In this document: one piece after another, positions 35,357 through 36,499 of the stretch
How the letters are laid out: every line of letters starts with the position of its first letter
Numbering within the stretch: the first letter of the stretch is position 1
DNA from: Martinezella lusitana
Lineage (GTDB): Bacteria > Pseudomonadota > Alphaproteobacteria > Rhizobiales > Rhizobiaceae
Assembly: GCF_014207095.1 (NCBI RefSeq)
Contig: NZ_JACHBG010000001.1
Location: forward strand, 496,001-560,000
Length of the DNA: 64,000 nucleotides
Reading direction: 5' to 3'
Program-made: the position numbers and the translations under genes
Notes under the pieces: model-generated
What the model saw: only the letters and a program-made list of their open reading frames with translations
The model's database searches: none
What the model was told of the DNA's origin: nothing

Positions 35357-36499
35357 CTACTTGTTCGACAGCAAATCGCCACAGCAGACTTCCCGGACAT
35401 ATGTATTGCCATAGGTGACAAATGCGGCCTTCGGAATAGCATTGCTGGCACGCAGCATCTGATACAGGGATTTTTGGGTGTCGTTGTTGCCCGTCGCTCT
35501 GACCGCGACCGCGAACCTGCCATTTGTTGTGAGATGCACCGCCAAAGGGAGTGCGGAAGTCAGAACGAGCGACTTCGCCGCCTCCAGATTATCCTCGCTC
35601 TTGATCTGAATATAGCTTTTCCCGAATGGTCCCTCGTCGAATTCGCGAACCCATACCCAGGTTTGCTGCATATATCCGTTATATCCACCGATCGAGACCT
35701 CATACCATTCGCCCTTGCTGGCCTTGATCTCAAGCCCGCTTCCGCTCGCAAAATCGGCAATTGTTTTTGTATTCTCCGTGGCGTTCGCCATTAAGGGTGC
35801 CGTGCCTTTCGGATGCTGGACAATTCCATTCTTCGCGACAGGAATTTCAAGATCGACAGCCGCGCTCTCGGGGGCTTGCGGTTCCGCCGCCGCTGCCGGC
35901 TCATCTGCATCCGGGGTCGTGACACGATAGAGCTTCATCTCACTTGCAGAAAGATAGCGCATGTCATCGGAATCATATTGCAGGGAGAGCTTCAACAATC
36001 CGGGATCGGCACCCATATCCGTCATGTAGGATATGACATCGGCGGTTATCGTCTGGACCGCTGCGACGGCCTCTTCAACGCGCATACCCTTTGTGTCGTT
36101 GAACGAAGCCTTGTGGACACCGATCGATCCAGCATCCGCAATGCGAACGACGCCGCCAAGGAATGCCAGAGAGCAGGCGGATGCGCATTCTTGTACACGC
36201 ACGGCGACCGTGTTCATTCCAAGCGAGCGGATCAGTCTTCCAAGTTCGATCGCCTTCCGGATATTTCCACCAGGGCTATCGAAGGTGACCGCGTTCGCAC
36301 GATAAGATTTCACTGCCTTGCGAAATTTGTTCAGGTCGTCGTCCGCTTCGAACGAGCCGTCCACAATGACATAGCGCAATCCGTCGTCAGTCGTCATGTG
36401 GCTGTAGCTGAGACGGGCAACCGCATCGCTTGCAAAAAAGATCATGCCCAAAACTAAGGCGCAGCCTATTTGAAATGGCCTCACCACGCTCACCCCCAC
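35357..36499 (-). CDS. Periplasmic ClpP-like protein with SH3-like and SPOR-like regions
   Basis: This 380-residue protein has an N-terminal hydrophobic export signal (to about residue 28). A ClpP/crotonase-like domain follows (about 40-190) with SPGGN, a candidate nucleophile Ser107 in CASAC and His129 in GVHKA, as in COG3904 predicted periplasmic proteins. A bacterial SH3-like segment follows (about 243-290, GEWYEVSIGGYNGYMQ, WVWVREF). The C-terminus (about 294-378, YIQIKSEDNLEAAKSL, GRFAVAVRATG, TYGNTYVREVCC) looks like a SPOR domain. The start is uncertain: several GTG codons occur within 15 bases. The function may be wall-associated proteolysis, which is inference. Confidence 0.8.
   Translation of the reverse strand: MGVSVVRPFQIGCALVLGMIFFASDAVARLSYSHMTTDDGLRYVIVDGSFEADDDLNKFRKAVKSYRANAVTFDSPGGNIRKAIELGRLIRSLGMNTVAVRVQECASACSLAFLGGVVRIADAGSIGVHKASFNDTKGMRVEEAVAAVQTITADVISYMTDMGADPGLLKLSLQYDSDDMRYLSASEMKLYRVTTPDADEPAAAAEPQAPESAAVDLEIPVAKNGIVQHPKGTAPLMANATENTKTIADFASGSGLEIKASKGEWYEVSIGGYNGYMQQTWVWVREFDEGPFGKSYIQIKSEDNLEAAKSLVLTSALPLAVHLTTNGRFAVAVRATGNNDTQKSLYQMLRASNAIPKAAFVTYGNTYVREVCCGDLLSNK

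Follow-up and report, generated by a model that had tools for sequence, protein, structure and literature searches.

Judging from sequence comparisons, it is fairly probable that one gene of the window, i.e. the whole stretch of 64,000 nucleotides of Martinezella lusitana DNA analysed here, encodes a serine peptidase that is exported and then anchored to peptidoglycan through a C-terminal SH3-SPOR module. Comparison of related proteins showed this module to be portable, and it is found on a trypsin-like protease in five genomes of the genus. As the module is portable, the wall-directed tail would be the constant part of such proteins and the proteolytic head the exchangeable part. A first-pass annotation had proposed three parts for the product of this open reading frame, and the ClpP-fold, SH3 and SPOR-like parts were all detected (Table 1).

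The 380-aa protein, which is apparently exported, has relatives at 94, 81, 70 and 69% identity; by name, the closest belong to Rhizobium sp. ASV20 (94%), R. miluonense (81%) and R. mayense (68%), which places the genome in Rhizobium or very close to it. Translation could start at any of several in-frame GTG codons (residues 1, 3, 5 and 6), which leaves the exact start uncertain. The gene is alone at its locus, with the rpsF side on one flank and a divergent histidine phosphatase on the other (rpsF and its neighbours were named by eye). A function based on an operon was considered and set aside on this ground.

Table 1. Features of the gene and of its predicted product (positions in the window)
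Feature	Positions	Strand	Residues and details	Basis
Whole gene, ClpP-like / SH3 / SPOR-like protein with signal peptide	35357..36499	(-)	380 aa + stop, GTG start	
Signal peptide	36416..36499	(-)	1-28 (AVA before R29)	by eye from sequence; A28 invariant in 22 A1 orthologues
ClpP-fold domain	35903..36415	(-)	29-199: GGN77-79, C105, Ser107, C109, His129, candidate Asp179	VIA-align and residue counts over 48 domains
Ala/Pro-rich linker	35852..35902	(-)	200-216 (17 codons)	low model confidence; relaxed dN/dS
SH3-like domain	35636..35851	(-)	217-288	SH3_4 4.2e-5 in query; SH3_3 above cut-off in many orthologues
Divergent SPOR domain	35381..35635	(-)	289-373, Gln298, terminal Cys372-Cys373	hhalign; L025 Pfam match; strand/helix order

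Residues 34-200 of the AF2 model superpose on ClpP with a VIA-align Z score of 14.9 (rmsd 3.4, 154 aligned residues), and a Foldseek search with the model matched ClpP at E 1.1e-6. This model was built from a 51-row alignment (pLDDT 87.8, pTM 0.53) and replaced a 22-row model of pLDDT 56; with this pTM the relative placement of the domains is uncertain. Sequence searches gave weaker signals. The query alone had weak NCBIfam matches (ClpP-related head maturation protease, E 0.0046; SppA, 0.08) and no match to Pfam CLP_protease (PF00574); the one match to this family among the 22 orthologues had E 0.23 and 11.8 bits versus a cut-off of 20.2. When the query sequence was searched against the PDB, neither SPOR nor ClpP was found. 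The protein resembles ClpP in the fold of this region, in a long helix at 141-161 of the model and in the succession and approximate distances of Ser, His and the candidate Asp. It differs from ClpP in its apparent export, its fusion to SH3-SPOR, the CxSxC motif at the nucleophile, an identity of about 15% and a score below the Pfam CLP_protease cut-off.

The motifs C105-A-S107-A-C109 and G127-V-H129 are present where the first-pass annotation had located them, and the ClpP-like domain with the Ser107/His129 pair that it had proposed is supported by the fold and by residue conservation; the assignment to the COG3904 type is that of the annotation. In sets collected by similarity to the family, which therefore overstate conservation across the fold at large, Ser107, His129 and Asp179 are each invariant in the 22 orthologues of alignment A1; in the 48 ClpP-like domains of alignment A4, Ser107 and His129 each occur in 47, C105 and C109 in 48 and Asp179 in 39; and C-x-S-x-C followed by His is found in 69 of all 71 collected ClpP-like ORFs covering the nucleophile. 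The two misses are L002, a paralogue from the same genome without Ser and His, and L066, with a broken frame. A1 was made without the truncated L009, the broken frames L024 and L026 and, because their C-terminus differs, L029-L033. A4 left out the near-duplicates L005, L013, L014 and the L022 protein with SPOR, as well as some of the ClpP-like ORFs, among them L003, L004, L074, L079, L080, L083-L085, L087 and L088; the truncated L054 was kept. Asp179 is a candidate for the third member of the catalytic triad, but it is not universal in the wider set. Cysteines at -2 and +2 of the nucleophile are a hallmark of the family, being present in all A4 rows, 47 of which have the Ser itself, and C105 and C109 may be joined by a disulphide next to the active site.

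The paralogue encoded in the same genome (L002:925-2106:-, contig C34) has Glu in place of the Ser and Ser in place of the His, and its C-terminal region has no Pfam match; it is probably a pseudoenzyme. As it has lost both residues, the ClpP-like fold can persist without catalysis. This, and the fact that no ATPase partner is known in the periplasm, would fit a ClpP-like domain that acts in binding or as a scaffold and is no working protease, with SH3-SPOR as its anchor. We consider such a role quite unlikely, given that Ser and His are invariant in every A1 orthologue and that the head is replaced in five genomes by an unrelated protease with a motif-intact triad, which is hard to explain by scaffolding alone.

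ClpP-like genes also occur in tandem, as in R. leguminosarum pRLN2 (L122:5932-7083:+ and L122:7079-8374:+, WP_105009430/WP_105009431) and likewise in L037-L040. One gene of the pair carries SH3-SPOR; the product of the other ends in an unlike region of some 210 aa for which Pfam gave no significant match, and this second gene is broken in L040. Such a pair is possibly a two-subunit peptidase. Relatives of the query were found on 326 plasmid records, including 126 from Pseudomonas and 58 from Phaeobacter. At least 80% of the query is covered in just 4 of these 326 records, and most of them therefore presumably match the ClpP-like domain alone.

Both domains of the tail were recovered, in orthologues and by profile comparison. 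For the SH3-like segment announced by the first-pass annotation, the query reaches 23.7 bits with Pfam SH3_4, just under the cut-off of 24.1. When the 22 A1 orthologues were searched with Pfam at E<=1, SH3_3 was found in 19, SH3_4 in 15 and SPOR in 7, not always at the C-terminus in the case of SPOR. SH3_3 exceeded its cut-off of 27 bits in 6 of the 10 proteins of one individual scan and 8 of the 10 of another, and it reached 32.4 bits in L025, a protein from another family of the order.

The C-terminal SPOR-like part is also real according to our comparisons, though divergent. No SPOR match was obtained for the C-terminus of the query with Pfam. A SPOR match at residues 257-274 of the query (18 residues, E 0.72) lies inside the SH3 region, as does one in L028, and both were rejected as SPOR evidence; such weak matches were discounted because an SH3-only profile itself reaches 32% versus SPOR (P 4.8e-4) over only ten columns, corresponding to a WYRV-type motif. 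L025 is the only individually scanned protein that passes the Pfam SPOR cut-off (PF05036) at its C-terminus (residues 302-360; 22.4 versus 21). When 28 C-terminal domains were compared by hhalign with 18 bona fide rhizobial SPOR domains, the probability was 95.2% and P 2.7e-8, with 66 of 85 columns collinear. The reference alignment (A6) derives from a Pfam SPOR search of 31 genomes (the source and relatives), 18 of the 30 loci being aligned, and it is a valid reference, since its profile finds the SPOR structures of CwlC, FtsN and RlpA. As controls, a ClpP-only profile gave 0.1% versus SPOR (P 0.47) and the SPOR-like profile 0.9% versus ClpP (P 0.06). A mixed profile (A3) gave 9.1% versus SPOR, with a best match of ten columns in the SH3 part; this control is unclean because A3 includes some full-length rows with SH3 and SPOR. 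In the AF2 model, residues 295-372 form strand-helix-strand-strand-helix-strand, the order of a SPOR domain. A structure search with the full model returned lists filled by ClpP chains and was uninformative for the SH3 and SPOR parts.

Could the C-terminal domain be an RNP-like ferredoxin fold functionally unrelated to SPOR, its likeness being convergent? The query and most orthologues score below the Pfam SPOR cut-off, both SPOR arginines are missing (see below), the SPOR-only profile A5 found no SPOR structure, and no ClpP, in the PDB, and the ten-column match of the SH3-only profile indicates that short look-alikes occur. We nevertheless regard convergence as very unlikely: L025 is above the cut-off, the domain adjoins an SH3 domain at the C-terminus, and the 66-column collinear match, which includes the Gln position, is far beyond the controls.

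The dN/dS ratios were calculated by NG86. Against L005, the nearest orthologue, they are about 0.06 for the ClpP domain, 0.12 for SH3 and 0.11 for SPOR, versus about 0.5 for the 17 codons of the linker. With L006, the three domains give about 0.06, 0.13 and 0.15, respectively. All three domains are under purifying selection.

The SPOR-like domain keeps some of the residues of classical SPOR domains and lacks others. In PMC6895207, conserved Gln270 of RlpA and a patch formed by Arg302, 309 and 311 are described as contacting glycan, septal localisation of FtsN is stated to need residues including Gln251, Trp283 and Arg285, and other SPOR domains are reported to build the basic patch, which contacts the NAM lactyl group, from other residues. 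Equivalences with RlpA and FtsN were taken from the hhalign alignment and from the spacing given in PMC6895207, and hold at the sequence level only. The column of Gln298 in strand 1 (RlpA Q270, FtsN Q251) has Gln in 23 of 28 domains and Glu in 5. The Trp-like column has Trp in 19 of 28, with Arg in the query. The Arg pair of YRVR, part of the basic patch in RlpA, is replaced throughout: the first is Ala in 28/28, the second Thr in 24 and Ala in 4, compared with 15 of 18 reference rhizobial domains for each Arg. A Cys-Cys pair closes the domain in all 28, behind either type of protease; the Cys pair of most of the 18 reference domains is absent here. Replacement of the basic-patch pair in 28/28 means that binding to denuded glycan may be altered or lost, and glycan binding of the classical type is uncertain. 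The idea of a peptidase directed to division sites, put forward in the first-pass annotation, hence stands only in part: most domains retain the Gln that contacts glycan, but none has the Arg pair.

Bacterial SH3 domains are often of the wall-binding type. The same peptidase could have a tail that merely retains it in the envelope, by general binding to peptidoglycan or protein, with no delivery to septum or pole. The replaced Arg pair, the patchy, accessory distribution described below and the fact that SH3 is the better-conserved Pfam match of the tail are all compatible with such retention. However, the glycan-contacting Gln is kept in most domains, and the SPOR-like profile and its constraint are maintained, and we hold retention alone to be rather unlikely. 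Of tethering to peptidoglycan and septal targeting in particular, tethering is the likelier.

The portability of the module is seen in the trypsin forms. In L045, L046, L061, L126 and L127, Trypsin_2 was detected at E 1.7e-25 to 2.2e-27 and the His/Asp/Ser motifs are intact in all five; SH3_3 is above its cut-off in each, and the SPOR scores of 13.5 to 20.7 bits fall short of the cut-off of 21. The same type of trypsin head occurs with two PAN domains instead in R. leguminosarum pSK03 (WP_094088726) and in Rhizobium sp. CB3171. Such trypsin-like proteases of Rhizobium, in which two PAN domains are the alternative to the SH3-SPOR tail, are encoded at L123:2513-3715:+ and L124:2468-3721:+. In 20-residue blocks, L126 is 65-95% identical to the two trypsin-PAN proteins at residues 21-200 (within the trypsin domain, as for WP_094088726), 40-60% at 201-240 and at most 30% beyond 240. 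Against two ClpP-SH3-SPOR proteins, it shows 0-35% up to residue 260 and 45-87% thereafter. The similarity therefore switches from trypsin-PAN to ClpP-SH3-SPOR at about residues 240-280. When 33 modules were placed in a tree, those borne by the five trypsin forms grouped together (87/82; 86% of bootstrap trees), beside ClpP-borne modules of the same genus with a shared node at 100/99. For the direction of the swap, ClpP to trypsin is the simpler reading because ClpP forms are widespread, but the tree is without an outgroup root. Mutual exclusion of the two forms was also considered: none of the five trypsin genomes has an intact ClpP-borne module, but chance alone would give less than one co-occurrence (about 0.7, from 5 x 22/148), and no exclusion is claimed.

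Searches with the SH3-SPOR profile covered 148 genomes of the genus, 397 across the order and 289 across the class. The tail was matched in 32, 16 and 1 of these, respectively, the single match in the class sample being the source genome, and none was found in the 288 other genomes of that sample. The combination, already called unusual in the first-pass annotation, was thus seen only within the order among the sampled genomes. The 32 genomes of the genus comprise 22 with an apparently intact ClpP form, 5 with the trypsin form and 5 in which all copies are truncated, broken or partial (G089, G030, G078, G037 and G045). The 16 matches in the order sample consist of the source genome, 8 intact ClpP forms, 4 truncated copies or fragments, the rearranged L057 and 2 weak matches to SH3 only. 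L057:1448-2872:- (G293) is a protein of 475 aa with a distant SH3 and a SPOR-like stretch near its N-terminus and a different C-terminal part; no protease domain was found in it by Pfam. When the tail of L061, a trypsin form, was searched against 72,556 plasmid records, six matches were obtained, in Rhizobium, Neorhizobium, Peteryoungia and Sinorhizobium. Copies of the gene or of its module that are truncated, broken or fragmentary were seen at L009, L024/L064, L026/L065, L042, L054, L055, L056, L058 and L062, and these damaged copies suggest an accessory gene that has been lost repeatedly. The gene is apparently intact in 27 of the 148 genomes of the genus, which makes it accessory and not a core division factor; its patchy distribution and the broken copies likewise indicate an accessory function.

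The peptidase anchored at peptidoglycan, our preferred reading, would work as follows. The protein would be exported by Sec, as its signal peptide suggests. Ser107 and His129, probably with Asp179, would then cleave peptides or exposed segments of proteins near the wall, and would do so without an ATP-driven unfoldase, none being expected in the periplasm. The SH3 and SPOR domains would tether the protein to peptidoglycan, perhaps on amidase-processed glycan at the septum and the new pole. The protein has in common with RgsS (FtsN-like, of S. meliloti), FtsN, DamX and RlpA a C-terminal SPOR-like domain with a conserved Gln in strand 1; unlike them, it has a protease head and lacks the Arg pair of YRVR. 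According to PMC6895207, every SPOR protein known has a role in division or morphogenesis. For S. meliloti, PMC7822825 describes a SPOR domain that gathers at the septum and helps to confine its protein to the new pole, and further indicates that in Rhizobiales the target of SPOR would include the growing pole, SPOR binding helping to mark the pole of growth. Given this behaviour, a protease bearing a SPOR domain that still binds would be active at newly made wall.

A broader proposal may be made, tentatively and at less than even chances. In Rhizobiales, a portable SH3-SPOR module would serve as an address by which serine proteases with unrelated folds, either ClpP-like or trypsin-like, can stand in for one another and reach amidase-processed peptidoglycan, forming a system for wall-directed proteolysis at the division site or the growing pole. 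The relatives in R. leguminosarum pRLN2 and Peteryoungia are annotated as 'hypothetical protein', and no title describing a ClpP-like/SH3/SPOR fusion was found in our searches of the open-licence literature. Each of the domains is known, and as far as these searches go their combination and the swap of heads appear undescribed. That a SPOR-type tail occurs on two proteases unrelated to each other would suggest that proteolysis is localised where new wall is made, an idea that rhizobia allow to be tested directly. Because the head has been exchanged in nature, targeting and catalysis are already separated, and ready-made reagents are at hand.
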